Positions 9,567 through 63,895 of a stretch of 64,000 nucleotides of DNA are shown piece by piece. A program made the position numbers and the translations under genes. The notes below the pieces were generated by a model. The model was not told where the DNA came from, ran no database searches, and saw only the letters and a list, made by a program, of their open reading frames with translations. Source of the stretch: Thuidium tamariscinum (Eukaryota; Streptophyta; Bryopsida; Hypnales; Thuidiaceae); contig OX344750.2 in the NCBI GenBank assembly GCA_947034885.2, forward strand, positions 6,368,501-6,432,500, in the 5' to 3' direction. Every line of letters starts with the position of its first letter. The stretch's first letter is position 1.

Positions 9567-9570
9567 TTAA

Positions 9571-10213
9571 CCCCTAAATGCCCAAGGTTTGTTTTGAGTG
9601 ACTTTGAATTTGCTCTAAAGTGAACAAAATGCCAACATTTTGATAAGTTGTATCAATTTCAAAAAAAAAATTGTAACCGTACCCATTCAAAGTAGAAATG
9701 TTAGAGATCTTGTAGGAAAAGAAAACACAACAATATCACTTATAGAGTGAAAGATTATAATGTTTGACCATGAGGGTGTTAAAACTGCAAAAAACTTTCA
9801 ATCCTCTTTTCACAAGTCAAATCTAAAAAAATGGTGACAAGAAAAAAATGAGGTTAAAGAGCCTAACATGTATAACCCCAATCAACTTTTGGCTTCTTAA
9901 AATCTACACTATAGTTTTTTTAAATGAATTTTGAATGTGATTTTTTCTCCAAGATCTAGTGTATTTGAGGCTCATTTCCAAGACTGCTCTCAACACTACG
10001 AGAAGTCAAGATTGCAATGGGTACCTTTGCACAAAATCTTCAATAGAAAAATCACTACTGATTATTCTCAAGATTGGATTTTTGAAGCTAAAACTAGACT
10101 TCACAAAGAACTTTCTAAAAATATTAAACTACTAAAAATAGCAACTTGGTTAAGTTTTGTTTGACTTCAAAGTTTTGCAAACACCAAATTTTGGTGCCTC
10201 ATGCATTTAGGGG
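9571..10213 (+). mobile_element. 643-bp non-autonomous element flanked by TTAA
   Basis: Starts CCCCTAAATGCCCAAGG after TTAA (9567-9570) and ends GCATTTAGGGG before TTAA (10214-10217). The 10-base ends are inverted repeats. A diverged relative lies at about 53300-53860, sharing the internal CCAACATTTTGAT and ACCAAATTTTGGTGCC blocks. The TTAA duplication and ends beginning CCC fit a piggyBac-type element; Kolobok also uses TTAA. There is no transposase frame. Confidence 0.7.
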
Positions 10214-10217
10214 TTAA

Positions 10218-14327: not shown

Positions 14328-14331
14328 ATAT

Positions 14332-15066
14332 GGGCAATTGCAAGAAACACTTGTCCTATTTTCCGTCACACCTCATGTGCTGATTTGTTTTTTGGCCATA
14401 ACTTCTATGTTTTGGCTCCAAATGACTCAAGATTTATAGAGAAGATATTCATAGGTACCGTACACATTCTCTAATTTTTTTCATAATTTTCAAAAATAGT
14501 TTGATTTCAAAATAGTACTAGTGATTGAATGTCACACTTAGCAGTTTAGGGGTTTTTAGTCACTAAGGAGTACCTTTTTTTAATGATTTTGAGATGAAAT
14601 TTGGATGAGATGGTCTCCTAATAGACTTATAGCTCTCCACGTGAGGGATTTTGAGAAAAGTTATTTTTATGACGTGTAGAAGTCCACAAAGTGAGCTTCC
14701 TTCTAGTTGCATTTTGAAACATATAAAGTATTATTTTAGTGATTTTTTTGATGAATGACCATCTCCATAAAGTTGTTGCAAATGGCCACTTTTTATTTTT
14801 TGTATTTACTTATTTTTACTAATTTTTCCGAATTAAAACATGAAGGTATGTATTTTCTTGAGATTTGGCGCTTTTTAAGTTCTCCTACTTAGAGAATTTT
14901 TCTATCAATTTCCTTTAGTGAAAACCTTCATTTTAGGGGAGTATACATTATTCATATTTTTTCAAATTTTTTCAAATTAATTTTCTAATTTTAAAGTACT
15001 CCAGAAAAAGTCACGAGTACTGTAGTAAAACGCAACAAATAGGACAAGTGTTTCTTGCAATCACCC
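14332..15066. mobile_element. 735-bp transposon, 4-bp TSD ATAT (family B)
   Basis: Starts GGGCAATTGCAAGAAACAC and ends GTGTTTCTTGCAATCACCC. It is flanked by ATAT at 14328-14331 and 15067-15070. The terminal inverted repeat is close to 30 bases. An internal TTAA near 14991 is the uninterrupted counterpart of the site occupied in the 41.8-kb copy. A short open frame inside is not a recognisable transposase, so the copy is non-autonomous. Confidence 0.82.
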
Positions 15067-15099
15067 ATATAGATAAAAAATAGTTAGTAGAAAGAAGAA

Positions 15100-15640
15100 G
15101 AGAATAATTCAAAATACTAAATTGTTGACAATTTAATTATGGAATTGGAAGATGCCAATTCGAATGGTTGTAATGTTGTAATAACAACCTATATCTAATT
15201 CTTTTATTTCACCCCAAAAAATATCAAAATTTGAATAAAATACATGACTTCAAAGTTTATCTTAAAGTAGAGATTCTATAACTACCTGCAAACTACCCAC
15301 AAACAAAAACTCCTCATAACTTTCATCTCATCAATCAAAATGGAATGATTCAAAGATTTACATACATATACATAAAATAAACCAATTTCAAATTTTGATT
15401 TCAAATTTTTTTTTTTACAAAAGTCTTATAGAAGCTTGAGCTACTAGCTATATAATGAAAACTACTTATCATACAAAATAACTTTTTAACTATGAAGTCA
15501 AAAATTATGGAACTTTTTGGGCCTTAAAGCTACTCTTTGAATATATGGTTTGTTATAATTTCAAAGCATTAAAAATCCATTTGTAGTGCATTGCCCAAAA
15601 TTGCTATGTTGCCAAAAAAAACACAATTTAGGGTTTTAGG
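15100..15640 (-). mobile_element. Truncated reverse copy of the TTAA element at 18023-18967
   Basis: The reverse complement follows 18040-18545. Shared blocks are ATTGCTATGTTGCC, AATGAAAGTT-type text and ACAACATTACAACCATT. The end toward 15640 reads TTTAGGGTTTTAGG, a decayed form of the TTTAGGGGTTAA end. The other half of the element is missing. Confidence 0.6.
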
Positions 15641-16340: not shown

Positions 16341-17094
16341 TTATTAATGTATTGTTTGATTTGTTAGAAAATAAATGGATTTAGATGAATTTGTCGAGAA
16401 AATTATATTAGGGCCAAAAATAGAAGGACAATATTGCGCAATGAATTGAATTGACTTGAGTATCTTTAATCCCTAAACATCCAATCTTCTTCAAAATTGA
16501 CAATTTGAAAAAAATCATCATAAAGTACTGTTTGGAAAAATATTTTGGAATTGATATACAAATAAAAATTGTAGAGTTTGAGTTTAAGATTCCATTTATA
16601 TGATTTTATTTTCCAATGCTATCACCAATATTTTTCTACAAATTTTGAAAGGAAAAATTCAAAATTCTTTCTTAATTCAATTAGAAATAAAAAATTGTCA
16701 TTTTCAAAATTAAATTTTTTGGAATGGATTTGAAATGAGGCTCTCTTGATTTAATGATTTTTTGAAATTTTTGTGTTCTTTAAATCTACAACTTGATTTT
16801 TGCAAATCAAGTTTTGAATGAGACTCAATGCAACTTTTGAATGAGAGTCAATGCAACTTTGGCTTGGTTAACCACCTAACATGCTTCCACATAAATTTGT
16901 AATTTTAGATAAATATGTACTCTAGTAACACCAAATCCAACCCTTAGATAGAACAACTTCATATTCAAAAAGAAAACTAATTTTCAATTTGTTCATGGTC
17001 TAGAAATTGGGCATTGGACTGCTTTAGACTTAACAAAAGAAGTTAATCCTTCAAGGCTGTAACTATTTTGGTTAGAACAAAATTAAAAACAAAA

Positions 17095-17380: not shown

Positions 17381-18022
17381 AAAATCTCTAGTACTGTAAA
17401 GTAAACTTAGTTGATTTTGTCAACCTATTTTATGTCCCAATTTGATTAAAAAAAACATCCAAATCCATTCTTTTTCTAACAAAATCATTACATTAACTGC
17501 TTAAAGACAAGATCCATTGTTAATTAGTCAAACATCATGTCCAAGTTGGATTTAGCCTATTAGATTGTATGTAAATATCAATCCAACAATTTTATTATTT
17601 TCATTGCAAAGATTAAAAACCAATAAGAAAAAATAGAAAAAAAAAATCTAGATTATTTGAAATTCTCTCAAGACATTCAAGTAGCAATGAAGATTAGTGT
17701 AAAAAATTTTCAATTGATTATTTCATTTTTACACCCATACAACTTCAACAAAGATCTTGAAGCCAAATTTGACTATCAAACCAAATTTATCTTTTTATTT
17801 AATAAATGTACAAATTTTTGATATTTTTTGATAGTAGAAAATTGTAATCTCTACTAATTCTATTTTATTTCAAGTTTTTTGATGAAAAAAAAATCAAATT
17901 TTTGTGATTATTTTAAGTTAAAGGTGAAAATTAAATTATATAATTTATAATATATGATAGAACAATAAGAAATTTTTACCTTTAGTATTGGTTAGAATGG
18001 AAAACTTAATTTTGTAATTTAA

Positions 18023-18967
18023 CCCCTAAATGCCCAAACTGCGTTTTTTTGGCAACATAGCAATTTTGGGCAGCTCACTATAAATGGAGTTTTTATTTTT
18101 TTTCTTTGAAATTTTCACACCACGTGTGTCTAAGGAGTAGCTTTAAGGCCCAACAATTTTCATAACTTTTGACAACATGAATACAAAGTTATTGCATGAT
18201 ATGTGATTTTTTTTACTTAGCGGGCACCCCAGGCAGCTGAAAAAACTTCTTCAAAAATCACTTTTTCTAAAATTTGAAATTTGAAATTTTTTCTTTAGAT
18301 TTTTATCTACTTGGAAAGCTTTTAATTATTCCAATTTGGTTTGTGAAATGAAAGTTGTGGGAGTTTTAGTTTGAAGGTAGTTTGTGGGAAGTTATGGAAT
18401 CTCTACTCCAAAATAAACTTTGAAGTCCATTATTTTACTCAATTTTTAATATTTTTGAAAAAAAATAAACACATTAGGTAAATATTGTCTATTACAACAT
18501 TACAACCATTGAGATTGGAAACTTTCAATTTCAAAAATTAATTATTACTATTTTACTATTTTGATTCATTTTCTACCTCTTTCTACGTACTAATTGTTTT
18601 CTACATGTTGTACAACTCCAAATGATTTGAAATTTTGTATGCATGTAGCTAACTTGACTAAAGGAATGAATTGAAAGAGTAAATACCATTTTGGACTTTT
18701 TTTCATACAAAAGTGAGCTACTGAAGTGCAGCTGCCCGGATTTTCGTAGGGACAAAAAAAGCATTTTTGACAATTCAAACACTATTATCTTGCAATCTAT
18801 ACGGTGGAAATTTCTGAAATTTTTTCCACATATTCTCAAACTAGTTTATTATAAGATCCTATGGTTACATTTGTCTTAAGATGTTTTAAAAAAAATATTT
18901 TGGTCTTGTACTAAAAGTGGCAGTTTTGGAGTGTTTTTGGCAAAACATAGTCAAATACATTCAGGGG
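18023..18967 (+). mobile_element. 945-bp TTAA-flanked element, uninterrupted copy
   Basis: Begins CCCCTAAATGCCCAAAC after TTAA (18019-18022) and ends ACATTCAGGGG before TTAA (18968-18971). It is the uninterrupted counterpart of the 42484-45996 insertion: its left half matches 42484-42910 and its right half matches 45480-45996. There is no transposase frame. The class is most like piggyBac, or Kolobok, by target site. Confidence 0.75.
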
Positions 18968-18971
18968 TTAA

Positions 18972-20640
18972 ATAGAAAATCCATTTTAAAAGGAAAAAAT
19001 ATAAATGATAAACACAACATATTTTGTTTGTTGGATTATAATACATGAAGCTTGCAATTGCAATAATTCTTTAAATTAAAAAAAAAAATTAAGCTTCAAG
19101 ATGAAGTAGAAAAAGAATTTGTCAAGCTTCATTTTCTTAGTTTAAGTCAAACACCTCAAATGGATATATTGAAAGTTAAAATCAAGGTTGACCAAGGCAC
19201 ATTTACTTTTTGGATGTGAAAACCTTTAGGACTTTTGGCTAAGAAGGAGAATATGGTGATCCTATAATGGTGTATACTCAAATATTATTGTATGCATAGA
19301 AAGGTGATTATGGATTGTATCCAAGACATACATAACTATATCCAATGAACCATTTTGTAATTTCAAAGTAGACCACTTCAAAAATTCACAAAAATTATAA
19401 TTTTAATTAGACAATTGTAACTCCATTTGTGTAAATTCATGGAACAAGAAAACCCCATTGAAATATATTTGTCCCTTTGGGAGTAGGCCCCAAAATATTC
19501 AGATTGCAAGTTAGGGCAATATACAATAGGCTTGCTACTTTATTGATGAAATATTAGATATATCTCTAATATTGAGATTCCAACATTTCTCAAGCACAAA
19601 TCAATTTGGGACCCCTTTCATGAGCTTTTAGTCCTAATTTAAAAAAAAAGAAAAACACACATTCTAGCTTTGGTTGGAAATATGTCAATTTATAGGTTGG
19701 CTATGAGTTTCTACCTTAACCCATAGCTGAATATACAATGCACGTTCAATTTTACATTATACTTTAGATGTGTACAAAGTCCATAGAATTCTTCTACCAA
19801 GTTCACTATAAAGATCCTACAATGCATGAGACATTGTTTGATTTCTCTTCACATCAGATAGTCAGGGGCAAGGAAATATCGTAATCGTAACATCAATGTT
19901 TTTTATGGTAGCTTTGAAAACATTGATGTCAAGATTACGATAATTCAATGTTTTCTATTCTGACAACTCATCAAGAATTACCGTAATCTTAACCCCTAAA
20001 CACCACCGGCATCATTTTGTAACATTTGCATGATCAAAAGTATCTCTAGAGAGAGATCAAAAGCATTTTTTCATCCATTATTTGCTTATTGACTTTTTAT
20101 GGAGGGTTATGAAGAATACCTAATTTAGTTGGTAGTCTTGCTAGTGTGTATGAGGAGTTAAGAAAACAAATGGCAAAATTTGCTATTCAATGTACTTTGC
20201 TCCTCCCTCTAAATCTGAAATTTCTCCTTGAAAATGACATTTTCTAAGTTTGAGCCCAATTAACAAAATGAAGGCCATGCACTCTAGTTTCTAATCCAAT
20301 TTGAATTTTTCAGAAATTCATAATATTGAATAATTTATTGCAATTTGAACTCCGGATGTATTTTCAATGTCCATTGTGTTCTAGTTACAGGACATAGAAT
20401 TTCGGAGTTTACCAAGATGATTGTCAATGTAATGTACACATGGTGAAATTTTCACTTTTTTTTTGGAATACTTTTTCTATATGATGTGATTTTTTCTTCA
20501 TTCTTCCTTCAAAAATTCTCACAAAAATCAATTTTCCTCTATAAAATTTAATTTTCTTGTGAAGTACAGAAGACATGCCACTTCATCTCTGAAAAATAAA
20601 TGTAAAATTTTCTTACATATTACTTCAGAAATGGCAACGA
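18972..20640. other. Intergenic AT-rich DNA, repeat C fragment in reverse
   Basis: About 20200-20400 is the reverse complement of part of repeat C (2160-2330), sharing CAATTTGAACT-type text and ACAAAATGAAGG. A pair of related segments around AAAACATTGATG lies at 19890-19985, next to TTAACCCCTAAACACC at 19988. No gene recognised. Confidence 0.35.
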
Positions 20641-21788
20641 CCTGAGTGACGGGCATTGAGGCCTGAAACCACTGGTTTCAGGTCCGGCGATTCGGGGTTA
20701 ATGGTTTATCCGTCTTCCAGACGTGAAATGGGGGAGAAAAATGCGAAGATAAAGCAATCAGAGTTCGCCTGGGTTTCCACAACCACACATCAACAGAACA
20801 GAAAACACTGAGAGGACTTGTGCGCATTCGGAGTCTGAATTTCGATGAAGAAACCCCCACAATTACCTGCATCAACTGTACCAACAACTCCAAGCCACCT
20901 CTGACGAATCTACAGAGCATCCGGGAAGCTTTGAGTGCACACAACGATTGATACAAACGTTACAAAGGAAGGACGATGTTTCAAAAGCTAATTGAAGTTG
21001 TGACCATAACACAGACCCGTCAACTCAGTACTAGAGCCTAGCGTAAGCACAACTCCTAAATCAACTAGTTAAGGACACCTAGCTCTGGACGATGACGATG
21101 ACCTTCACCTCCAAAGTTTCTCTGAAAGCTTTCGGTACGTCTCTGAAGATGTACTCCCGTCGACACACGATTGTAAATTCATATAAGTCACTTCTGAATG
21201 GATAAATCAATCCGATGAAGTATCCATTCAAAAGCGACGTATACAACTTGACAACCGTGCTCACGGACAAGCGTCGACGGTTTCTCTACACTCTACTTCA
21301 AGTTCTCACAAGCGACTCGCGGATCACCATGCCTATCTCAACGAAATCTCAAAACCAAACCGAAAAATAGCGAGAACTCTGATATTACATCGGAACTATG
21401 AAGGAATCGAGCACTGCGATGAAACGGAGATCAGTTCTAAAAGATACAACACAAGAAAAAGAGACACTCTCTTGCGAGGAAGGAGGTAGAATATATGCGC
21501 GGTAAAGGCCGGCGGGGTTCACTCCGGTTCACAAAACTTAGGGTTTCATCCAGTAGATGAATGTGTTCATCCGATGGTCAGGTATAACGAAAAAGAGAAG
21601 GAAAGAAGACGTAACCTAAAGAAAATGAATTAGAAAGACAGAAAGACGGAGTCCTTCAGCAGAAGCGTTCTACTTCACTGCGTCGGTAGGATGCGCGATC
21701 GGAGAAGCTGGAATGGCGATGGCAGTGATCTTCGTGATGTCGTGTTAGAGCTTGATCGAAAGATTGAGTAATTTTTTCAGAATTGAAA
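20641..21788 (+). promoter_or_regulatory. Upstream region and probable 5' UTR of the CCDC22 gene
   Basis: Composition rises to near-genic levels from about 20640 up to the ATG at 21789, with CpG and a TAGGGTTT box near 21539. Minus-strand frames in it (for example 20678-20956) match nothing I recognise. It may contain the leader or a divergent promoter, but no transcription start can be fixed. Confidence 0.35.
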
Positions 21789-31289: not shown

Positions 31290-33095
31290 CACTTTACATG
31301 TGATTAGATCATCTACACCCTACTTCTAGATGAATGACTTTCAACATGGCATTTAAAGGGTCTAATTAGATAGGTGTGTTGATCCCTATTCTTATTTGTT
31401 CAATCCCCTAAGTAAGAAAAAAATCATTCGTTAGTCTTCCTCTACAACTATGAATTTCTATATGTCAAAGGTGAATGTAGGATCCAATCAAGTAGGTAAG
31501 TTGATTCCTATCTCACTCAATCCTAGCCTAAAAAAATGTCATGTGCTAGTCTCCCTCTACAACTACATCTCTCTATGATCGTATCAAAAGTGAATATAAA
31601 GTCCAATTAGGTAGGTGTGTTGATGCCTATCATTATTCACTCTCTCCCCTAAGAAAGGCCATATATTAGTCTCCCTCTATAGCTATATGTCTCCATGATT
31701 TTTTCAAAAGTAAATATAAGGTCCAAACATATAGGTGCATTGATGCCTATCCTTGCTTGCTTGGTCCCCTAAGAAAAGGCCATGTATTGGTCTTTGTCTA
31801 CAACTATGAGTCTTCATCTACAACTACATGTCTCTACAATTGTCAAAAGTAAATATTGAATCCAATTATATAGGTGCATTGATGCCTATCCTTGCTTGCT
31901 CAGTCCCCTAGGAAAAGGCCATGTGTTGGTCTTTGTCTACAACTATGAGTCTTCATCTACAACTATGTGTCTCTGCGATTGTCAAAAGTAAATATTGGGT
32001 CCAATGATATAGGTGCGTTGATGCCTATCCTTGCTTAGCCCCCTAGGAAAAGGCCATAAGTTGGTCTCTGACTACAACTATGAGTCTTCATCTACAACTA
32101 TATGTCTTTGTGATTGTCAAAAGTAAATATTGGGTTCAAGTGTTGATCGATGCCTATCCTTGCTTGCCAGTCCCCTAAGAAAAGGCCATGTGTTGGTCTT
32201 TGTTTACAACTACGTGTCTTCATTTACAACTATGTGTCTCTATTATTGCTTGCTCAGTCCTTTAGGAAAAGACCATGTGTTGGTCTCTGTTTACAACTAC
32301 ATGACTGATTTTCAAAAGTAAATATAGGGTCAATAGGATATGTATATTATTGCCTATCCTTGCTCATTTAGTCCCTTAGAAAAAAGCCATGTGTTGTTTC
32401 TTTATGATTTTGTCAAAAATAAATATAGGATCCAATCACAAAGGTGTGTTGATGCCTATCTTTCCTCATTGAGTTCTAGGCTAAGAAAATTGTCATGTGT
32501 TAGTCTCCCTCTATAACTATATATTTCCATCACTGTTGAAAATGATTATAAGGTCTAATTAGGTAGGTGTGTTGATGCCTATCTTTGCCTATGGAAAAAA
32601 TACATGTCTTAAATTCCTTCTACAGCTAAGTCTCTATGATTGTATCAAAAGTGAATATAGGGTCTAATCAAATAGGCATGTTGATGCTCAATCTTCTAGA
32701 AAAAGATCATGTGTTAGTCTCCTTCTACAAATAAGTGCCTCCCCAAGTGTATTGAAAGTGAATATACAATCCAATCACGTGGGTGTGTTGATGCCTATCC
32801 TTGTTCACTCAGTCTTGGCCTTAGAAAAACGCCATGCATTAGTTTCCCTCTATAATTGACTATCTCCATGATTTTGTCAAAAGTAAATACAGAGCCCAGT
32901 CAAGTAGGTGTATTGATGCCTATCTTCATTTGCACAATCTCCAATGAAAACTAAGGCCATGTGTTAGTCTACCCAAAATATTCATGATTGTGTCAAAAGC
33001 AAATATAAGGTCCAATTAGGTAGCTATTCTTGCTCACTCAATCCCATCAAGAAAAAAAACCATGAGTTAATTTCTCTCTACAACTAAGTGTCTAT
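31290..33095 (+). repeat. Degenerate tandem array, about 15 units of 100-140 bp
   Basis: A repeating order of landmarks recurs: GTGTTGATGCCTATCCTTG, then CAGTCCCCTAAGAAAAGGCC, ATGTGTTGGTCT, CTACAACTA, TGTCTC, then TCAAAAGTAAATATAGGGTC and CAATCA-GTAGGT. The GATGCCTAT landmark or a variant occurs near 31381, 31502, 31622, 31742, 31879, 32021, 32150, 32350, 32451, 32574, 32683, 32790 and 32916. Units vary in length by internal duplications of the CTACAACTA segment. It is not CRISPR: there are no constant repeats with unique spacers. Confidence 0.85.
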
Positions 33096-33830: not shown

Positions 33831-36748
33831 TCAAAGCATTTGCCAGTCATCTTCAGATGGAGGGCCTTTGGGAACGGATTCTCCCAGATCCAAGTTGCCG
33901 GCGTCTGCTGCTTTCGGGGGAGCGGACTTCTCAGCAACGGTAAACATGGGGGCTCCGTTGGATTGCTGGGCTAACTCAGATGACCGGGCGCAAAGGTCAT
34001 CAAACTCGGCTGTCACAAAGTGTCAACAACGTTTCACACAATTAATAGCAACCAAGGTCGTTAAACTGTTCATTAACAACTGCTCTCAAGTCTAAAACGA
34101 TTAAAGGTAAATAGTATTGAAGACCTGATCCCCGTTACCACGACCAACTCACCTCTTCCAATACACTTGTTTGAGACTTCAATTAGCACGTTGTGTAAGC
34201 AACCCTAGGCTGAGTGTCTATAGTCACCGATCTATGAAAGGAAACATGGACATCTACGGTCACTTAAAGTGGTCGAAAGATCTTTCAATCTGAAATTGGA
34301 TAAGATACTCATACATGGTAATTAAAAATTAATAGATATTGGCTATTGTAGTGAAAGTGATCTCTCCACAGCTCTTCATTGATCTCTTCGTGAAAGCACG
34401 CTTCTACATACGTCAATTTGTGTGAAAAAATAGCATCCTCTTCCTTGAGCAGAAAGCATCATAAGTAGACGTAGCAAACGCCTCAGGAGTCTCAAGAACA
34501 TGTAGCCTTCGGATAGTATTACGATGAATAAGATGCGGTAATTTTACCTCGGTCTCGACAGTAGAAGCCAATAGCAAGGGATGGATCGATAGAGTCCAAT
34601 GGAAGACGCCGCACAGCACTGCGCAACCAAAAAAACAGTCGTTTGAGGGAACAACCCGACATCGGAAAGTACTTTGGCAGACGAGCAAGTACCTTCTTCC
34701 ACAGAGATAGCCCAGACAAGGCGACACATCTCTATCAAACCCATACATTCTTAACACTAAATAAGCACACCTGGGAACACCCTTCCCACAATTTACAAAC
34801 AATTCAACCTAAATCACCATTAGCTGCTCCTCATCAAATGCAGATTATGAACTTTCTACGTACGCTTCAAAGCAGACGCCTGTACGAATCAGGACTGAAG
34901 CAAGGCTAGAAATGCATCAGGGCTACCTGCAATGATAGGAGCTCGTATCCAGCTCCAGATTCTCCGGCGTTACTGGCACAACCTACAAAGTAAGCACTGG
35001 AATTTATCAAGTGTCGATCATTTACAGCTGCGTCCACACTACCACATAAGTGCTGCTCATCAACACGCTAACGGATAGTGACTCCAATCTGCAAGGATTG
35101 GAAGAGGAGTCTGCGAAATCCTTTAGTCTCTACATAGATCTCTCAAATTTACCTGCTGTGTTTCGTGAGGGTCCAAGTACATCGCCTGATCATCTTGCAC
35201 ACCAACTAGGTACGTGGAAGCACCCGGCTTACCACCTGCAATCCCAAGACTCTGAGGGAAAGTGAACGTCGCTCTCAATGATGGTAAGTACCTGCATAAA
35301 TAAATAAAGTCTCCTATTTAGAGTTTATTAACTTCCTTAAAACTCTAATAAATTAAATGATGAAAGGGATCCGATTAAAAAAACATAGCTCTTTCACCAC
35401 AAGCTTGGAAATCACTCATTCAAGAAGAAAACAAAAACGCATTCAAATCTGCTCAATAAGGTGTCCTAACAGTAGAGGCGACAACGGATCTAAACAGTGG
35501 AAATTCTGCGGTACAAGGATCCATCACCATTGAAACAGGGCAATGCAACAAACCTGGGGTTCACTTTGTCAAGGCCAAGCACAAGAGGCACAAGCAACAA
35601 CAACGGGCTCCATTCTTCTGGAGGCTCTCCCCACTTCGAACACAACAACGCTACATCTTCCACGCATAAGACTGGTGCACCACCTCTCTCACCCTCAGCT
35701 TCTCCAGAAACAACATAAACAGAAAATGGTAATGCTCGCTTCGACCCAATCTTGTGGCTCTGATTTCTGTCGGCCTTAGACAGCGCTTCCAGGGTCCTAC
35801 AAAGAGCGTAAGGACCAAGCCAAGAACCCGCAACCAAGCCAAACGGGGTACCCGCCTCCAGCAAACTGTGGATCGAGAAGGAGCACGACTCAGAGTCACC
35901 AAAGCTTTCCAAGATTTGCAGGTACTCTTGCGAAGATGGCTGAGCAACAGAAAATAACGAAGCTTAAAACACGGCATGAGTACCTACATAAAGCTTAATC
36001 AGACCAAAATTTGAACGCCCAGCACCAACACCACGGAATGAATTCCCACTCGAAGACTTGCAAAAACACCAAAGGATCAAATGCGCAGCAGCAGCGTTGG
36101 AAAAAAATGAGAGACACCAACCTGTCCAGGATCCCGTCGCCATGACCGACCCAAACAGTGGCAAACAAGGGCCTGCATCACAGCCGCAAGTCAGATACTG
36201 CAGAAACAAGCAACGGACTGTTCACAATGACGCAGCCGATTCCAGGAGCAAAAAAATCGGCAGCAAATCACTGAAACAAGTACAAGCTGCGACTAATTAG
36301 AAGACAAACGCAATGCTCAGGTCCTACTAGAAATAATCACAGGAGTACCTGAGCTAAAAGCATCTGGCCGCTGCGTAACATGCATCCCCACCCTACATCG
36401 CTCGTCAATTTCGACTGGCCCACACATTCAAAACCTGCTGAAACAAATCAAAACGAAGCATTCACCAAGCTGTGCAAACTAAGGCTGTTCAAACCCGCCA
36501 ACAACGTGGTCACTGCAGACACGAACTCATACAAGCCAAAAGCGAAACAAACCTTTCCGGTATGTGATCCAGATTCGGGAACTGAAATCAAGGAGAAACT
36601 CCTCAAAAGCTTGAGCCGACGCAGCTTCATTGCTGGAATCTGCAGAAACCTTGTAGCACAATCCCAAAACCCAAATCTCACTCCCCGACGAAGCGTTGGC
36701 TGCTGTGTACCATCTGTGCCCCAGCAGACGCTCCTGCAGACGCCGCAT
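33831..36748 (-). CDS. ATG4: ATG4 autophagy cysteine protease (8 exons resolved, 5' end open)
   Basis: Exons in transcript order: 36748-36553 (the exon extends further 5'), 36434-36349, 36172-36122, 35939-35554, 35291-35153, 34982-34927, 34618-34548, 34009-33831. They splice in frame to 387 residues counted from the Met at 36748, ending TGA. The catalytic Cys is in GWGCMLRSGQM (Cys83), and Asp280 and His282 are in YLDPHE. FGDSES, GSWLGPYALCR, GGKPGAS and DPSLAIGFYCRD are family blocks. ATG4 trims the C-terminus of ATG8 and releases ATG8 from phosphatidylethanolamine in autophagy. The last residues, EDDWQML, form an ATG8-interacting motif. Plant ATG4 is about 470 residues, so 80 or so N-terminal residues remain upstream; the frame already continues as VVRRVVSCGS before this Met. 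Confidence 0.9.
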
Positions 36749-37477
36749 AGAGCCGCAACTCACCACTCGCCTTACCACCTCCAGCGCCCCTGCTTGTAGT
36801 ACCAGCTCAATAATGTAATAAAACACCCACCGACCCTCCCCTGTATCACTTCGGCACTATGCAGCTACCAATATCGTGTCTGAAGTTCGATCAATCCACC
36901 AAGTCAAGCGCCCTTTCTCTGCTCGAGTAAACCGCTTATAACACCTACTCCTCAACATGCACGCTCTTCCGCCGAGGATTAACTTCTTCGCACAACCTCC
37001 TCGCCGAAACTAAAATTTTCGCTGTGACAAAACAAGCACGAAACAAAGCAAAACTTCAAACCAATGCTTTTCGCACGCACAGTCGTGCATACTCAGGGAC
37101 TCATTACATCACTAAAACCCTAACTCCGACAATTCAAGAAGAACGTAGCCAGAAATATCCAGATATTCACGATCTTTGCCTGGTCAGTCACAGAAAAGCT
37201 ACGGTTGCTCTACGACAAGCGAAACACGCAAATACTCGGTGGGAGGAAACGTCTAATTACCTCCGTATAAAAAAAATAAGCCAGTAAACAGTACAGGATT
37301 TATAGCACTACTTGCGCGCACGGCAGGGTCCAAGGCCGCAGCATTTCACATACACCTCGAGAAGACAAGAGGACACTAAAATCCTTCCTACAAAGAATAG
37401 CAGTCGATTCAGACTGAAATGCAGTAACAAGATTACGAATCGAACCTAGTAACGAAACCACACAATGAATTGCTCAC

Positions 37478-39597: not shown

Positions 39598-41551
39598 TAC
39601 TACAAGGGAAATGGGCCCTAATCTATAGAAATTTTGACAGAATAGTGTCCGAAATGACAACTACAACTTTTGAAATTCAGCACTTTGTCAATATGGTCAC
39701 TATTGCAATGTCTATCAAATTCTTGTCAATTTCTTTGTCAATTTTAACAAGTACGTTTAAAGTCTTCTAAGAAATTCAACAATTTTTTACAAATAACTTC
39801 TATTTCAAATATAAAACTTTTACTAACAATATGTAACACACAGCAATGTAACACACAACAATTTTCAACCACTCACCAACCACATCTAGGCATTACTTGT
39901 CTTTAAAGGAGAGAAGCTCCCTCAATATATGTGGAGTGGTCGGAGCACGGCCAATCCATGTGGGATATGTGCATTTTTTAAGTTAGGAGAGATCATAGTC
40001 AAGTTAGAAACCCGTGATTTGGTATTAAAACTAAGATTTCAAACCTCAATTAGGCATAGAAGTTTGTCTTTTTACAAAAAAAAAATTGAACTAAAACTAG
40101 TTAGAATATAAAATAGAGTTTTAAGTCCAAAAATCCATTTGACATTTAAAGCTACCAATCAAAAGTTCTGGACAAATTTCAAAGAGAAAATTTGGAAAAA
40201 TGTAAAAAGAACAATTTCAAACACCTCTTTGAAATTCCAAAACTTTTGATTGGAAACTTAAAATATAAAACGGATTTTTTTGAATGAAACTTCATTTAAT
40301 AATATAACTAGCTTTAGTTCAAAGTTTTTTACAAAAACACATTCTACTATGCCTAAATGAGGTCTGCAATCCTACTTTTAATACAATTCCTATTTCTAAC
40401 TTAGTGCTAAGTTAGAAATAGGAATTGTATTAAAAGTAGGATTGCAGACCTCATTTAGGCATAGTAGAATGTGTTTTTGTAAAAAACTTTGAACTAAAGC
40501 TAGTTATATTATTAAATGAAGTTTCATTCAAAAAAATCCGTTTTATATTTTAAGTTTCCAATCAAAAGTTTTGGAATTTCAAAGAGGTGTTTGAAATTGT
40601 TCTTTTTACATTTTTCCAAATTTTCTCTTTGAAATTTGTCCAGAACTTTTGATTGGTAGCTTTAAATGTCAAATGGATTTTTGGACTTAAAACTCTATTT
40701 TATATTCTAACTAGTTTTAGTTCAAATTTTTTTGTAAAAAGACAAACTTTGAACTAAAGCTAGTTATATTATTAAATGAAGTTTCATTCAAGAAAATCCG
40801 TTTTATATTTCAAGTTTCCAATCAAAAGTTTTGGAATTTCAAAGAGGTGTTTGAAATTGTTCTTCTTACATTTTTCCAAATTTTCTCTTTGAAATCTGTC
40901 CATAACTTTTGATTGGCAGCTTTAAATGTCAAACGGATTTTTGGACTTGAAACTCTATTTTATATTCTAACTAGTTTTAGACTTTTAGTTCAAATTTTTT
41001 TGTAAAAAGACATTCTTCTATGCCTAATTGAGGTTTGAAATCTTAGTTTTAATACTAAATCATGGGTTTCTAATTTGACTATGAGCTCTCCTAACTTCAA
41101 AAATGCACATATCCCATATGGATTGGCTATGCTCCTACCTCCATATGTGTATATATATAGCTTCCCTTCCCCATTCACTTCACAATTACAAATGGTTCAT
41201 ATACTTTTGAAAATAATAAAAATTTATTAATTCAAAAATATTCATCTAAACATTTATCATTCATCCAATAAAATTTCATCCAAATTTTTTTTGGCCATTA
41301 TTTCAATTATTTTATTAAATCTTTGGATAATAAAATAATTTTTTTGAATTAAATGACGTGTCAAAAAGAATCCACGGTGGCAAAGGAGTGAAAAAAAAGA
41401 CTTGCTAACGTGTATTCATGTCTAAATCTACAAAAAAATTGACAAAATTTGGTCAATTGGATGTCCGAATCAGGGTCTCCTAACCTACAAAAGAATTGAT
41501 AGAATTCTGTCACATTTTTTGTCAATTAGGACACAGTTTTCCCTTGTAGTG
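39598..41551. mobile_element. 1954-bp CACTA-like non-autonomous element
   Basis: The right end reads TTTTCCCTTGTAGTG and the left end TACTACAAGGGAAA, so both match CACTACAAGGGAAA apart from one base at the left. The 3-base flank TGA is present on both sides (39595-39597, 41552-41554), as expected for CACTA (En/Spm). There is no transposase. The interior is occupied by a large foldback (see the palindrome entry). Confidence 0.78.
39928..41150. repeat. Large palindrome with a second, diverged arm
   Basis: Around a 2-base centre at 40404-40405 (CTAACTTAG-TG-CTAAGTTAG), some 345 bases on each side (about 40061-40403 and 40406-40747) are almost perfectly complementary. At 40748 the right arm jumps back to TTTGAACTAAAGC and runs through a second, more diverged copy to about 41150. 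That copy alone pairs with the outermost left segment (39931-40060; CCAATCCATGTGGGATATG against CATATCCCATATGGATTGG). The transcript of either strand would form a long hairpin. Confidence 0.85.
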
Positions 41552-41836: not shown

Positions 41837-43620
41837 TGGTGATTGCAAGAAACACCTCTACTATTTTCTATCACTCAATGTGTGCTCACCTTTTTTTTGG
41901 CCATAAATTTTGTGTTTTGGATTTACATAATTCAAAATTTATAGAGAAGGTAATCATGGCTAATATACACTTTACCTAATTTTTTTGGAGTTTTTAAAGA
42001 TAGTTAAATATCTAGAAATAGATCCCAATTTAATGTCACACTTGCCAATTTGGAGGTCTTTATTACTATTTAAGACCCAAGAAAACAAATTTTGAGCTAA
42101 AATTTAGAGATAATGGTCTTCCAATAGACTTGTATCTAATAGACAAAGGAATTTTTTAAATAATTATTTTTATGTGCTGTAAAAGCTCACAAAGTAAACT
42201 ATTTTCTACTTGCATTTTGAAATGTGTAAAAAATGATTTTGGTTTTTTTTTTTTATGAATGTCCATCTCAATAAGTTGTTGCAAAAAGACTATTTTTATT
42301 TTGTTTTTCTATTTTTTCCTACTTAAAACATCAAAGTAGGTATTTTCTTGAGATTTGGCACTTTCTAGTCCTCCCACTTAGAGAATTTTTCTATACATTT
42401 CTTTTGGTGGTTACCTTTGTCTTAAAGATGTATACTCATTAATCATAATTTTTTTTAATTCAAAATTATTTTTCTAATTTTAACCCCTAAAGGACCAAAG
42501 TGCCTTTTTTGGCAACTTAAAAATTTTGGGCAAATATGTGTGACTAGAGATTTCCATGTTTTGGGATCAAACTCTAATAGATGGTGTAGATAAGGAATAT
42601 CTTTAAATTCCAAAAAATTTTGTAACTTTTGATTGCATGGTTAGAAAAATTATTGCATTATTTGTTGTCTCTTTTTCAACTTGAGCAGTTTAGGCAGATG
42701 AAAAAAAACTACTTTTTTTAGAAATAAAAATTTGAAATTGATTTTATGAATTTATTTATATGTAGAAAGCTTTGAATCATTCCATTGGATTAATGAGTCA
42801 AAAGTTATGAAAAGATTTTGTTCACAGGTAGTTACAAATCCTCTACTCTGAAATCAATTTTAAAGTCCTTTATTTTATTCACTTTTCAATATTTTTGAAA
42901 AAAAATAAAATTGTTAACTAGCTCAGTCCTTGCTTCCCACCTCATTGAAAAATCTCCTCATTGTCAATATGAATATAAAAGAATTTGAAATGCCCCCACA
43001 TGACATCCACTTGAATTTATTTTTTAAAATTAAATGACATGAAATATGAGAATTGAAGGAGGCCAAAACAAGAAAGAAAGTGGCGGTTCATGTCTAGCAA
43101 AATAACTATCTTGAAAAGAAGCTTCCTTTCGAATCTTTTAACTTCCTCTCATGATCTTTCCCAAATAAGCATTATTGGATAGGTCATCTCTCTTTGCAAG
43201 CAATATTTGAAGTTTTGTGTTTTTGGATGCCAATTTTAATGCAACATATTGAATCCAATGATTTGCTATTTCTTCTTATTATATAGCACAACTAAGCTTT
43301 CTATAGAAGGAGATGAAGCAAAATACAAAAAGAGGGCCAAAGATGAAATAGTTATTCTAAAGCGGATTCTTGTAAGTTCAAATGTTATTTGTTTTTGTAG
43401 GATCCACTTGCCTATTGTTCTATATTCTTGTTTGAAATTCAATCATTTTTATTTATTTTCAAAAGTAGTTAATTAAGTTGATGTATATTGAGGAGGATTT
43501 GGCAATATAATGTTTGATTATTCAATATGGAGCACCATGTATATTTAGAGGTGAATTGGGAGAGTTAGGATCTAGAAATTTCGATTGTGATTCACAAGGG
43601 TGATGATGCTTTAGACAATG

Positions 43621-44352
43621 GGGTCATTGCAAAAAAGACCGAACGATTTTGGTAGCATTTTCCACAATACTGCTGAAATTTTTGGAAGTACTGTATAATT
43701 AGAAAAATAATTTTTAAAAAATGTAAAAAATATGTTTTATGTATATACCTCTAAAAAGAAGGTTCCCTGGGAAGGATAAGTGTAGAAAAATTCTCTAAGT
43801 AGGAGAACTAGAAAAGTGCAAATTTTCATGAAAATAGGTACTTTGACATTTTAATTTGTAAGAAATAGGAAAAAGAATTTTTTTTAAAACTAAAAATTTC
43901 AATTTGGGAGAACTTTATGATGAAGAGATTTCACCAAAAGAATTATCTCAAAACCATCTTAAATGTTAAAAAATACGCACGCAAGGGAGGCCTGTTAGCG
44001 CACATGTAGAGGAAAGAGAATAATGATTTTTGAGATTTCCTTTGGTAGAAACATGCCTACCTAGTATGGAAATAGGCCACAAAAGTTTCAGCTTTAGATT
44101 ATTAATTTTGGATGCTCCCTAGTACTAAAAACCCTTAAACTACAAAGTGTGACAAATTAGCTTAATTGAAATTTAATTAGAAAATGATTTTTTAATTTTT
44201 TTGAAAAATAAAGAATTTTATTGTTGTCATATCAGACATCTTCAATAAAAATTTCAAGGTAATATGGTTCATAATTTAAAAGTTATAGTCAATAACAACT
44301 CCGTCATTCAAAGTGTGATGCAAAATAGTACCGGTCTTTCTTGCAATCACCC
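43621..44352. mobile_element. 732-bp family B element, TSD AATG
   Basis: Begins GGGTCATTGCAAAAAAGACC and ends GGTCTTTCTTGCAATCACCC. It is flanked by AATG at 43617-43620 and 44353-44356. The interior is related to the 14-kb copy in reverse orientation (ATTCTCTAAGTAGGAGAACT against AGTTCTCCTACTTAGAGAAT). Confidence 0.85.
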
Positions 44353-44545
44353 AATGATAGGATGGGATGCTTGTAATGCTTCTTAATTTTAACTAAGAAG
44401 TGCGTATTAGATTGCATTTGAAATTTTGAATGTTGAAATTTTTTGATAGCTATATAATTCTTATTCTGGTGTCTTTGACATTTTATTGTTAATATTTTTT
44501 AATTTACGTGTTTTTGTATATTTTAATGCTTCTCTCTTCATTTGT

Positions 44546-45274
44546 GGGTGATTGCAAGAAACACTTGTCCTATTTTTTGTCCCCTTGACCTCCAACAGGT
44601 AGTTTTTTGCTCATAACTTTTGCATAGTTTTTCCTATCAACTTGAAATTTGGAATGAAGGTGCACACAAAAGTTTTATATGTTGTGTAATTTTTTCAATT
44701 TTTTAAAAATTAGTTTACTATTTTTAAACTGCCCCCAATTGGCTGTCTACCTTGGCCATTTTGGGGGGTTTTAGTCCTATTTTTGACCCAAAAATAAAAA
44801 TTTTGAGCTGAAAATTGGCATGCAAAGACCTCACCTAATGTTACACAAGACCACGAAGAGATTTTTTGAAAATACTATATTGTTCAACCTCCACATGCCA
44901 TCAAAGTCGCTGACTTTGCGCAAGTATAGAGAATAGAGTTAATTTTTTCCAAAGATGAAATTTGTTGGAAAAGAAAGACCTTTACTTGAAGAAAAAACGA
45001 TTTTTTCATTTTTCATTTTTTCATTTTTTTACTATTTTTACCAAATTAGTGAAAAAAGAGCTATTTTCATTGTATTTTCCATTGTCTATAACATTTAGAG
45101 AAAAAATTTCTTAGGTCTGAATTTCAAGAGACATAATATTCTCATTGCTCTTCAAATTATCCATATTTTTTTCAATTTAATAAAAATTTATTTCAAAGGG
45201 TCATAGGACTCATAGGACTCATTGATTTTAAGCCATTTTGAGCCAAAACCGGTAAGTGTTTCTTGCAACGACCC
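44546..45274. mobile_element. 729-bp family B element, TSD TTGT
   Basis: Begins GGGTGATTGCAAGAAACAC and ends GTGTTTCTTGCAACGACCC. It is flanked by TTGT at 44542-44545 and 45275-45278. The interior differs from the 14-kb copy and matches the decayed fragment at 14040-14180, so it is a second subfamily sharing termini. Confidence 0.85.
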
Positions 45275-46043
45275 TTGTAGAGAATTTTAGATATCGAAAG
45301 GTGACAAAGAAAGAGAAAGAGACATGAGATTGAAGACAAAGTTGTTGAAAAGATTAGAGTTAGAATCAAATGTAAAAGTGATGTAGTTAGGATAGGGTTT
45401 GCTACCCCTAAAAAAAATTAACAACCAATGAAATTTGGCCATGTGTATTATTTGTGGAAAATAAAAAAATAATACTTTGAAGTTGACATTGTGAAAAAAT
45501 ACCTACCTACTCTTAATTATTACAACATTTGAACCATTAGGATTGGCAATTTTCAATTTCACAAATAAATTCTTAACAATTTAGTATTCTAAATCATTTT
45601 CTACTTCTTTCTACTAACTATTTTTTTCCTATATGTTGTACAATTTCAAATGATTTGAAATTTTCTTAAGCATGTAGCCAACTTGCCTTGAAAAATGAAT
45701 CCAAAGAAAAACTACCATTTGGGACTTTTTTTATTTAAATGTGAGCTTATAAAGTGCAGCTACCTGATTTTTTGCAGGGCCAAAAGAAGGATTTTGGTCA
45801 ATTTAAATGCTCATATCTTATAATCCATATAGTAGAAAATTATGAAAAATTTTCCTCATATTTTCAAACTAGCATACTACAAGATCCTATGGTTGCATAT
45901 GTCTAAAAATAATATTTTTCAAGTATTCGATGCTTGTGTTGAAAATGGCAATTTTCAAGTGCTTTTGGTGAGAACATAGTCAAGGAACTGTAGGAGTTAA
46001 AGTTCTTCCAAAAAAATCATGAAAACGCATCAAAATTGACAAT

Positions 46044-46256
46044 TGTTTCTTGTAGTCATTTAAAAACTCAAGTGCTTTTGGTGCAAACCACCATCAAATC
46101 CTTTTATTACTATCACTCAAAATATTACAATCACTAGTCTTCTACACTTGTTTCTTGTAGTCATTTAAAAGCTTAAGTGCTTTTGGTGCAAACCACCATG
46201 AAATCTTTCTATTACTATCACTCAAAATATTACAATCACTAGTCTACTACACTTGT
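46044..46256 (+). repeat. 106-bp direct tandem duplication
   Basis: Two adjacent copies of GTTTCTTGTAGTCATTTAAA through GCTTTTGGTGCAAACCACCAT, ATTACTATCACTCAAAATA and CACTAGTCT-CTACACTT differ at only a few positions. The duplication begins inside the end of the host family B element. Confidence 0.85.
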
Positions 46257-53250: not shown

Positions 53251-53299
53251 CGACTTTTCCAAAGAAGAGGACATGCCCAATATTTTTTTGAAGCTTCTT

Positions 53300-53862
53300 C
53301 AATTTGAACATAAAGCCAACATTTTGATGAGTTTAATCAATTTTTTTTAGGTTGAGACTATATAAATTCAAACTAATCCTATGAGAAAAAAAAAACATAA
53401 TATCATTCATAGATTGTAAGATTACAATGTCTCATCATGAAAAGTAATTTGAAATCTTTCAATCTTCTTCCCACATGTCAAATCTAAATTCAAGTCACCA
53501 AAAAATATGAAGTTACAAGGCATAATGTGTATAACCCCAATCAATTTGCAACTTTTCAAAATCCACTTGAAAAATTATTCAAATGAATTTTTAATGTGAT
53601 TTTTTCTCCAAAATCTAGTGGATTTAATTCTCATTCCAAGAGTCATCAACACTCAAAAATCAAGATTTGCAATGGACATCCTTGAACAAAATCTTGAATA
53701 GAAAAATCATAATCATTTGTTTTTGAAATTGGATTTTTGTATAAGACATCAAAAAGTTTTTTCAAAAATATAAACTACTAAAAATAATAACTTGGTAAAT
53801 TTTGATTTAGCCTCAAGTTATTGTTAACACCAAAATTTGGTGCCTTGGGCATTTAGGAGTAA
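53300..53862 (+). mobile_element. Diverged relative of the TTAA element at 9571
   Basis: Shares GCCAACATTTTGATG, CTCCAAAATCTAGTG, AAACTACTAAAAATA and ACCAAAATTTGGTGCC in the same order. The right end, GGGCATTTAGGAGTAAAT, is a mutated form of GGGCATTTAGGGGTTAA. The left end is lost against the family B fragment. Confidence 0.6.
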
Positions 53863-55930
53863 ATTTCTACAATGGATCACCCTTTGTGTATTTTGGCCAT
53901 TTCTTATTACCAATATTTATTCTTATGAGAATCTTAGCTATAAAAATGATGCTTTTTTAAATTTGAGATCAACAAATAAAATGCAGATAAATATTTTAGT
54001 TTCTACTTTAATTAAAAAATACAAAATAATTATAAATTTCAACATTATATGACAATATGAACTTTAGGCCTATAACCATGGTTTAAAAAAAATTTAGAGT
54101 GACACAATAACTTTGGATTACACCATAATATAAGTGGTGAAAATATCAGATTTTTTTACCCTGATTTTTAAGTATCTTTTGTAATTGAAATTAATTTTCT
54201 TCATTTTTTTCTTAGGAAATTCACCATAATTTCAATTTTTCCCCAAAAAATTTGAAAACTTCACAACTTGCACTAGACATATGAATCCATCTCCAAAAGC
54301 TAAGGCAAATGTAAAAGTTTTCATTCATTCATATATATATTAAATACAGATATCAAAGGGACTCATACTAATTAATTGACATTTTACAATATACAAATAT
54401 CTACCTATGCTATACATTGACAAGTTATTGAAGTACATGGGGTTGTACATCATGTTTCAAACATCTATAGTTTTCTACAATAAGTCCCTTAAATTTGTTT
54501 GGTTCCCTTAATACCCATACTAATTTTAATGTAGTTACAAAATGGCAACAAATAGAGTGATGGATAGTGAGGCTTGAAATTAGTTGTTATATGCTTGTAC
54601 TTCTGGTTAAGAAACTAAGTATAAGTACTTCAAATGTTGATTTATCCATAGTCTATTTGTATAGTACTATACGATGGCCTTCAATATGTCTTATACCCCC
54701 ACCTTTAATTTTCAGTCAAGTAGTTTAATTACAAAATCTAACTATGGTAGGTAAATTTAGATATTTGATTGATATTTTTTGCCTTGGACAAGGTGAGTTA
54801 TGTACCTTCTTGTGACTCATTCTTTTTTTAGAAATCTCTCACTTGTGACATGTGGTTGATTTTAGAGACACTAAGTTAAATTCAAAGGTACAATGCTACA
54901 TTTTGATAATCTCATTCTACAAGATCTTAGGTAGTTGATTTGAACTAGCTTTGGAGTTGAGAGGACCAAATATTATTACATGCATGCTTCTAGTCATTAT
55001 TGCTCGCAAATGTAACCTAAAAGTTTGTCTACAATATTGTATAAATGATGTTGCTAGAAGTTCTATAAGCAAATTTTGTGAGATTTTAAGTAATGTTAGT
55101 TCACTTTGTACTATGATATAGTGTAAATCTCATTGAATGGCCATCAAATTCTTTTAGCTTTAATCCCATAGAAAACATATAGAAGCAAGTCAAGAATTTG
55201 GTACAAAAAGAAATCAGTAGATCTACAACAAAGACCAAATGTGTACACTAGTGAATTTGGCATGGGAGGATAATTATACTTTAAAAAACTATCTAAAAGT
55301 TAACTTTTACAATGCCAAACTACATGGAAGCAATAATAGGAGCTCAAGGTGATAATACTTGATGGTAGTAGAAGTACCACTTTGTTGCAAATTAGTTGCA
55401 ACTGAGCAAGACAAAAATGCAAAAATCATGTTATAGTAAACTTCTACAATATTACACAGCTTTCTAATGGTACTCTATTTGATAAAATTCATTGAATTTT
55501 TTCAAATTTATAACTTTTGTCTTAAATATATATGAAAGAAAAATGAAAAACACATTAAAGCCACATGGAAGACAATTTTACCTACATAATGTGAATTTTT
55601 GTAATATGTAAGATGTAGACAATGATGTTTCCTAAATACATGTACAATCAAATCTTAAAAAATCATCATGTATATTTTTCAACTAATTGATTATATAACT
55701 TTGTGAAAAAAGAATAATTCTCCTAAAATTGAATTTCTATTTTTAATCATTGAAATTTCATACGTTGGTTAACTAAAGATTCCATAAAGCAATAGATTGA
55801 ATAGGACATTTTGATAGGATATTCTTAAAGTGGAATTTAATAAGAAAAGTTTGAAAGACTTCAATGTGGGGTTGCAAAACTTATTGGACAATATTATACA
55901 ATACAATTCATTACAATTCTTCATCTAGAG
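53863..55930. other. AT-rich intergenic DNA
   Basis: No gene, RNA or recognisable element. Confidence 0.4.
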
Positions 55931-62059: not shown

Positions 62060-62166
62060 GTGTCCTAACAATAGAGGAACCAAAAAAAAAATTTATACAC
62101 ATCTGAAAGGTGAAGATTCTACAGTAAAGTGATCCATCATAATTCAAACAGAGAAATGCAACAAAC

Positions 62167-63895
62167 CTGGGGTTCACTTTATAAAGGCCAAGCACAAGAG
62201 GCACAAGAAACAACAACGGGCTCCATTCTTCTGGAGGCTCTCCCCACTTCGAACACAATAACGATACATCTTCCACGCATAAGACTGGTGCACCCATCTC
62301 TCACCTCTGCTTCTCCAGAAACAGCATAAACAGAAAATGGTAATGCTCGCTTCGACCCAATCTTGTGGCTCTGATTTCTGTCGGCCTTAGACAGCGCTTC
62401 CAAGGTCCTACAAAGAGCGTAAGGACCAAGCCAAGAACCCGCAGCCAAGCCAAACGGGGTACCCGCCTCCAGCAAATTGTGGATCGAGAAGGAGCACGAC
62501 TCAGAGTCACCAAAGCTTTGCAAGATTTGCAGGTACTCTTGCGAAGGTGGCTGAGCAACAGAAAATAACGAAGCTTAAAACACGGCATGAGTACAACATA
62601 AAGCTTAACCAGACCAAGATTTAAACGCCCAGCATCAACACCACCGGATGAATTACACTCAAAGACTTGCAAAAACACCAAAGGATCAAATGCGCAGCAG
62701 CAGCGTTGGAAAAAAATGAGAGACACCAACCTGTCCAGGATCCCATCGCCATGACCGACCCAAACAGTGGCAAACAAGGGCCTGCATCACAGCCGCAAGT
62801 CAGATACTGCAGAAACAAGTAACGGACTGTTCACAATGACGCAACCGATTCCAGCCCGAAAAAAATTCGGCAGCATACCACTGAAACAAGTACAAGCTGC
62901 GGCTATTTAGAAGAGCAACGCAATGCTCAGGTCCTACTGCAAATAATTACAGGAGTACCTGAGCTAAAAGCATCTGGCCGCAGCGTAACATGCATCCCCA
63001 CCCTACATCGCTCGTCAATTTCGACTGGCCCACACATTCAAAACCTGCTGAAACAAATCAAAACGAAGCATTCAAAAGGACAACCCAAGCTGTGGCTCAT
63101 GCCCTAATCTCATAAAAAAACGACAAAGATAAAAGAAAAAGAGGAGATACAACTGCTGCTCAAACTAAGGCTGTTCAAACCCGCCAACAACGCGGTCACT
63201 GCAGACACGAACTCAAACAAGCCAAAAGCGAAACAAACCTTTCCGGTATGTGATCCAGATTCGGGAACTGAAATCAAGGAGAAACTCCTCAAAAGCTTGA
63301 GCCGACGCAGCTTCATTGCTGGAATCTGCAGAAACCTTGTAGCACAATCCCAAAACCCAAATCTCACTCCCCGATGAAGCGTTGGCTGCTGTGTACCATC
63401 TGTGCCCCAGCAGACGCTCCTGCAGACGCCGCATAGAGCCGCAACTCACCACTCGCCTTACCACCTCCAGCGCCCCTGCTTGTAGTACCAGCTCAATAAT
63501 GTAATAAAACACCCACCGACCCTCCCCTGTATCACTTCGGCACTATGCAGCTACCAATATCGTGTCTGAAGTTCGATCAATCCACCAAGTCAAGCGCCCT
63601 TTCTCTGCTCGAGTAAACCGCTTATAACACCTACTCCTCAACATGCACGCTCTTCCGCCGAGGATTAACTTCTTCGCACAACCTCCTCGCCGAAACTAAA
63701 ATTTTCGCTGTGACAAAACATGCACGAAACAAAGCAAAACTTCAAACCAATGCTTTTTGCAGGCACAGTCGTGCATACTCAGGGACTCATTACATCACTA
63801 AAACCCTAACTCCGACAATTCAAGAAAAACGTAGCCAGAAATATCCAGATATTCACGATCTTTGCCTGGTCAGTCACAGAAAAGCCACGGTACAT
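62167..63895 (-). pseudogene. ATG4: Partial ATG4 copy, frameshifted and missing its 3' exons
   Basis: Counterparts of four ATG4 exons are present: 63434-63239 (same encoded protein as the intact copy), 63044-62959, 62781-62731 and 62550-62167. The last is 384 rather than 386 bases. A 2-base net loss near 62290-62310 shifts the frame after VSGEAE, so the rest of the protease core is out of frame. Changes also include Ser to Cys after GWGCMLR, Arg to Trp in the third exon, and Asp to Tyr in the LGLDKVNPR block. The exons with the catalytic Asp and His, and the C-terminus, are not found to the left. Similarity with 35457-37195 extends over introns, so this is a DNA duplication, not a retrocopy. 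Transcription is possible but a working protease is not. Confidence 0.85.

Follow-up and report, generated by a model that had tools for sequence, protein, structure and literature searches.

Evidence that a TTAA-flanked insert in a moss repeat is an old non-autonomous piggyBac-type transposon

A TTAA-flanked insert at positions 42484-45996 of a 64,000-nucleotide stretch of the Thuidium tamariscinum genome (contig OX344750.2; hereafter the window) is almost certainly an old non-autonomous transposon of the piggyBac superfamily, presumably mobilised in trans and joined into a TTAA of a family B repeat. The insert has TTAA-flanked ends and an empty paralogue, other copies of its family lie at TTAA, and autonomous elements whose ends are of this kind carry a piggyBac transposase with the catalytic aspartates.

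The host family B repeat (41837-46061) is interrupted by 3513 bp, and TTAA borders the insert at 42480-42483 and 45997-46000, exact to the base with the positions given in an earlier examination of these letters (the sequence-only reading). In a paralogous copy of family B (14332-15066), a single TTAA stands at the matching point (14991-14994); this copy has further TTAAs elsewhere. We aligned the flanks (41837-42483 plus 45997-46061) to this copy, omitting the insert and keeping one TTAA, and found that 546 of 765 alignment columns were identical (498 of 692 in the left arm) and that the junction coincided with the TTAA at 14991-14994. Thus, the breakpoints meet at TTAA, and the flanks do continue family B as in the empty copy, as had been claimed. 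We read the 'empty site' as a paralogous repeat copy, ~71% identical and at a different locus, and not as the pre-insertion state; the copy is itself nested in a reverse-strand copy of the TTAA family (15640-15066 plus 14337-14177). The features of the split repeat and its counterpart are as follows.

14332-15066, plus strand: family B copy with the empty site, junction TTAA at 14991-14994 (from alignment).
41837-42483, plus strand: left arm of the host family B, up to and including the left TTAA (42480-42483; from alignment to the empty copy).
42484-45996, plus strand: the 3513-bp insert, very probably a non-autonomous element of piggyBac type into which other DNA inserted later (from TTAA on both sides, the ends CCCCTAAAGG and CTCCTACAGT, and genome relatives).
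42484-42910, plus strand: left part of the core, 68% identical to window 18022-18469.
43621-44352, minus strand: nested family B copy with AATG on each side (from the sequence and blastn).
44546-45274, plus strand: younger nested family B copy with TTGT on each side, matching 39 other scored genome places at 94-96% identity.
45518-45996, plus strand: right part of the core, 77% identical to window 18490-18954.
45997-46061, plus strand: the right TTAA (45997-46000), followed by the right arm of the host family B (from alignment to the empty copy and control scores).

The insert is composite. Its core of ~0.9 kb (42484-42910 plus 45518-45996) matches window 18022-18954, the first ~427 bp and last ~480 bp of the insert matching a clean 945-bp element at 18023-18967, and is interrupted by ~2.6 kb of other DNA that includes two family B copies. 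The sequence-only reading had described a single 3.5-kb element, which was right in its size and edges; however, what it took as one element is the core plus ~2.6 kb of later insertions. It had overlooked this nested structure, as well as further such elements in the window and the near-identical group of transposases described below. Read inward, the right end of the insert is CTCCTACAGT; it shares 7 of 10 bases with the left end, CCCCTAAAGG, so that the earlier description of the right end as a decayed GGGG is a fair one; that end now reads CTCC. The longest stop-free frame in the insert is 78 aa; it has no coding capacity, and its assignment to a superfamily depends on its relatives.

The nesting suggests that an old family B copy was there first, that the TTAA element followed, and that younger family B copies later entered the TTAA element. 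In the mechanism that we propose, a piggyBac-type transposase from full-length elements elsewhere in the genome would have acted in trans, a short element with ends of the CCCCTAAA(T/C)GCCC type would have been cut from a donor and joined into a TTAA inside the family B repeat, leaving TTAA on each side, and two family B elements and other DNA would have inserted later, enlarging the element from ~0.9 to 3.5 kb. We infer the cut-and-paste chemistry and the trans supply, as well as the identity of the mobilising lineage considered below, from the sequences.

The window holds further TTAA elements. The clean member of the insert's family has inverted ends of 10 bp, and two elements of other families are bounded by TTAA and CCCC ends (9567-10217 and 19989-20701).

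9567-10217, plus strand: second TTAA family, 643 bp between TTAAs, perfect 10-bp inverted ends CCCCTAAATG (from the sequence and a 5' match to transposase locus L018).
15066-15640, minus strand: part of a third copy of the insert's family, broken by the empty family B copy, 74% identical to 18025-18607; a further piece lies at 14177-14337.
18019-18971, plus strand: clean 945-bp member of the insert's family, TTAA at 18019-18022 and 18968-18971, inverted ends CCCCTAAATG and CATTCAGGGG (from the sequence and genome matches).
19989-20701, plus strand: third TTAA family, 705 bp between TTAAs, ends CCCCTAAACACC and CCCCGAATCGCC (from the sequence).

More partial matches to the window TTAA families were found at 15640-15066 (minus strand), 53287-53863 and 2178-2599, and a separate repeat pair (16466-16963 and 59215-58750) has one such end in each member. 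The motif TTAACCCCTAA occurs 4 times on the plus strand of the window, while 0.026 occurrences are expected from dinucleotides. With up to 3 mismatches, TTAACCCCTAAATG was found 17 times compared to 9.8 expected, a count reached by 2 of 100 shuffles; thus, loose end matches alone carry little weight.

The genome is rich in piggyBac transposases. The PF13843 (DDE_Tnp_1_7) profile gave at least 116 scored matches, all above the cut-off (best 5.7e-80), with 659 first-look candidates, and 0 matches in 14 control genomes; some of the matches contain stop codons. We fetched 30 of the 116 loci and read four of these end to end. For 19 of the 30, the 1.5 kb that we fetched reached a 3' end bounded by TTAA; it showed no clear 3' end for the other 11 (L010, L012, L014-L018, L032, L033, L035 and L038), and reading L015 further gave a candidate end, GGGTCATTTAAGGGTTAA. 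The autonomous DDE_Tnp_1_7 copies between such ends that the sequence-only reading had suggested looking for exist: L018 (5143 bp including both TTAAs), L020 (5096 bp), L031 (5946 bp) and L036 (4896 bp) each have PF13843 between TTAA-bounded ends, with CCC or CCCC termini in all four. L018 matches the solved Trichoplusia ni (T. ni) piggyBac (6x67) at 5.9e-27 and, in an alignment read by eye, D268, D346 and D447 are aligned; these residues are named as the catalytic triad of T. ni piggyBac in a passage of PMC7351741. The columns corresponding to the catalytic aspartates hold D in all 30 fetched transposase loci. Among PDB sequences, 6x67 and 9c0f alone were matched at an E of 0.001 or below, and a Pfam search with L020 returned PF13843 alone.

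The window family is most likely a non-autonomous derivative or passenger of piggyBac of the L018 lineage. A first comparison of the window elements with the 30 transposase loci turned up brief matches at the ends, some nested neighbours and a single weak internal match, which was to L018; the link to L018 was seen clearly only on reading further downstream and upstream. The first 20 bp of L018 (TTAA included) are identical to the clean window element, and a 154-bp match to the same element (67.5%, E 1.4e-5) runs collinear with the 3' end. The last 200 bp of L018 scored 64 against a genome copy of the short element (L044), compared to a best background of 41 in 4000 stretches and a best shuffle of 30 in 1000. 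The 5' end also agrees with the 9567-10217 element at 21 of 22 bp (TTAA included). The homology of L018 to the window family does not go beyond ~20 bp on the 5' side and ~150-200 bp on the 3' side, and a second GGGGTTAA lies 11-12 bp past the L018 end that we used.

L018, on C7, is thus the best candidate for the lineage that supplied transposase in trans. It could instead be, and this possibility has some weight although less than an even chance, that the family is piggyBac-type but was moved by another lineage (L031, L037 or one outside the fetched set): the 3' end of L031 read inward, TTAACCCCTAAACGCCCAAG, is close to the window ends, and the fetched loci are 30 of 116, with both ends read in four. 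Among the fetched stretches compared, however, subterminal homology at its own end was found for L018 only.

The other superfamily that the sequence-only reading had weighed, Kolobok, is a very improbable source of the insert. Kolobok makes TTAA duplications too and is reported from a chlorophyte alga (PMC9587614), but the same passage gives its termini as 5'-RR...YY-3', while those here are 5'-CCCC...GGGG, and elements with ends of the CCCC...GGGG type carry PF13843. We rejected Kolobok, which the TTAA duplication would fit, on its termini and on PF13843. A terminal inverted repeat starting with CCC was found in most of 30 genome copies of the window family and in all four completely read elements, the right end of the insert being CTCC, and CCC/GGG is described as the usual start of piggyBac termini in a passage of PMC10140906. 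The earlier leaning towards piggyBac is therefore supported by the TTAA flanks, the CCC or CCCC ends, the PF13843 elements, and the terminal and 3' subterminal sequence shared by L018.

TTAA as target rests on many insertions and not on the window pair alone. Because TTAA is palindromic, a single filled and empty pair cannot distinguish duplication of TTAA from that of TA or TTA with a longer inverted repeat. The pair had been presented as direct evidence of TTAA duplication; TTAA does stand on both sides of the insert and once in the paralogue, but the pair alone is ambiguous and the flanks of multiple copies were needed. A genome search with the clean 945-bp element (40 scored among 10,208 first-look candidates) gave at least 44 matches, 40 of them near full length at 94-100% identity (the window copy included) and four partial. 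We compared flanks at the best 30 places (L039-L068), which include the clean window copy at 18023-18967. The printed flanks differ among all 30 copies. TTAA is found on both sides in 28 of them, with L055 and L057 lacking a perfect TTAA on one side; in orientation, the left flank reads T in 29, T in 28, A in 30 and A in 30, the right flank is TTAA in 30 of 30, and the bases outside these four positions are mixed. This table fits duplication of TTAA, and not of TA, TTA or TAA. In a wider count, we found 104 exact copies of the 20-base left end across the genome, 96 of them directly after TTAA (0 with the reversed pattern as control), and the eight without TTAA include L055 and L057. The genome-wide look for ends beside TTAA that had been proposed thus bears out the target.

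Paralogous empty sites were found for 5 of the 30 copies, with an exact TTAA in the paralogues of L050 and L062 and close variants in those of L040 (TCAA, with an adjacent one-base gap), L060 (TCAA) and L057 (TTGA). The 30 copies, the 104 left ends, and the empty paralogues of the window copy and of these five agree with TTAA duplication on insertion. An element that duplicates TA or TTA/TAA (Tc1/mariner or PIF/Harbinger), with an inverted repeat starting A or AA, could have been accommodated by the single window comparison, which the palindrome leaves ambiguous; it is extremely improbable given four TTAA positions fixed or nearly so in 30 insertions, mixed bases next to them, and window-family ends common to an element with a piggyBac transposase. 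That family B fragments flank unrelated DNA by chance or recombination is hardly credible: the right family B arm is just ~65 bp with 48 of 73 columns identical, but its homology exceeds chance, its local score of 40 being above the 33 reached by the best of 3000 other stretches of the window on both strands, and the insert begins and ends where other copies of its family do.

Ends of the form CCCCTAAA(T/C)G are found in most of the 30 copies. The left ends of L039-L068 read CCCCTAAACGCC in 22, CCCCTAAATGCC in five and other forms in three, a pattern of variation that CpG decay would give.

The elements described here resemble the piggyBac superfamily (T. ni piggyBac and piggyBat) in the TTAA site and its duplication, the inverted ends starting with CCC, and the DDD transposase (PF13843). 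They differ in length, with 4.9-5.9 kb for the four autonomous elements compared to 2472 bp for T. ni piggyBac in a passage of PMC10140906. In two of three elements examined, another frame of 285-297 aa precedes that of the transposase, a further difference from T. ni piggyBac and piggyBat. The upstream frames in L020 and L036 (with L070 and L071) are alike by eye across two lineages, and no Pfam match was found to the first 179 aa of that of L020, the part tested. Short subterminal palindromes were seen by eye in three 5' ends.

The pairwise identity of the 30 short-element copies is 94.5-98.9% (median 96.8%), and the window core is 74% identical to them (median). Eleven of the 30 fetched transposase loci (L020-L030) show 0-2 differences from the reference L020 over 3984 bp, and their 3' ends each adjoin a separate TTAA in different surroundings; of their 5' ends, that of L020 was read. 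From these identities, the short-element family is older than the L020-L030 group, and the spread of one transposase group appears to be very recent. Among 14 representative transposases, distant lineages are 34-45% identical to each other. Several deep lineages, at least 116 strong transposase matches, the 11-copy group and several TTAA passenger families may mean that naturally active piggyBac is invading this moss genome now, or was doing so until very recent times, a reading for which we consider the balance even. If true, a land plant would harbour a native piggyBac system that is active at present, and repeated horizontal transfer may have brought it there.

At L022 (~3981-4174, oriented on the transposase), a young near-identical piggyBac copy ends exactly at a TTAA adjoining an older relative of the 18019 element. 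This TTAA is common to both elements, as if existing duplications were reused as targets.

piggyBac has been studied and used mostly in animals. For a land plant, its abundance and recency in this moss are unexpected. The remark that such elements are poorly documented in land plants is fair in general, but piggyBac copies have already been annotated in plants: passages of PMC10140906 and PMC10813416 describe piggyBac as present in plants, a table of a fern genome lists 1230 for PiggyBac (in part of PMC6890710), a grass genome is given 1 (in part of PMC8319324), and a passage of the review PMC10004981 places PiggyBac among angiosperm MITE superfamilies. Those MITEs, like the insert, are non-autonomous and classed as PiggyBac, but they are angiosperm elements, whereas here transposase-bearing elements with matching ends are found in the same moss genome. 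Our literature search on piggyBac and TTAA elements in mosses, bryophytes and plants (mainly open-access) found no account of piggyBac in mosses; one apparent mention (PMC10619864) was discarded, the word there being 'piggybacking'. The many lineages and the near-identical recent group make testable the natural activity of piggyBac in plants, its route of arrival and the share of moss DNA that it has shaped, and otherwise anonymous TTAA-flanked repeat families gain a superfamily.

Family B belongs to a different superfamily from the TTAA elements. Its inverted ends are GGGTGATTGCAAGAAACACTT, and a variable 4-bp duplication was found in 7 of 7 genome copies read (L002-L008: ATAA, TGAA, TGTT, CAAA, TTGT, ACAA and TACA) and at the window copies 14332-15066, 43621-44352 and 44546-45274 (ATAT, AATG and TTGT). 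Sola1 and Sola2 make 4-bp duplications while Sola3 uses TTAA, and we presume that family B is perhaps Sola-like. The TTAA elements are like Sola in their use of TTAA; we set Sola aside for them, since a piggyBac transposase with matching ends suffices.

Elsewhere in the window, two copies with an ATG4-type peptidase (Peptidase_C54) at 35488-37205 and 62101-63891 are 94.0% and 98.6% identical in two pieces and represent a recent local duplication. A large inverted-repeat region lies at 40060-41139, in which 692 bp match their own reverse complement at 98.8%, and overlapping, diverged tandem-like repeats (~67-72% identical) lie at 31353-33093; no Rfam matches were found in the window. The genome also has a LEAFY-type gene that makes a moss host very likely, the best of six PF01698 matches having an E of 1.6e-27, with 0 matches in the 14 control genomes. 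A stretch of its DNA-binding domain is identical at 100 of 106 positions to PDB 4bhk, which we take to be the Physcomitrella protein, at 75 of 103 to 2vy1, presumably the Arabidopsis protein, and at 74 of 105 to 9fwy.
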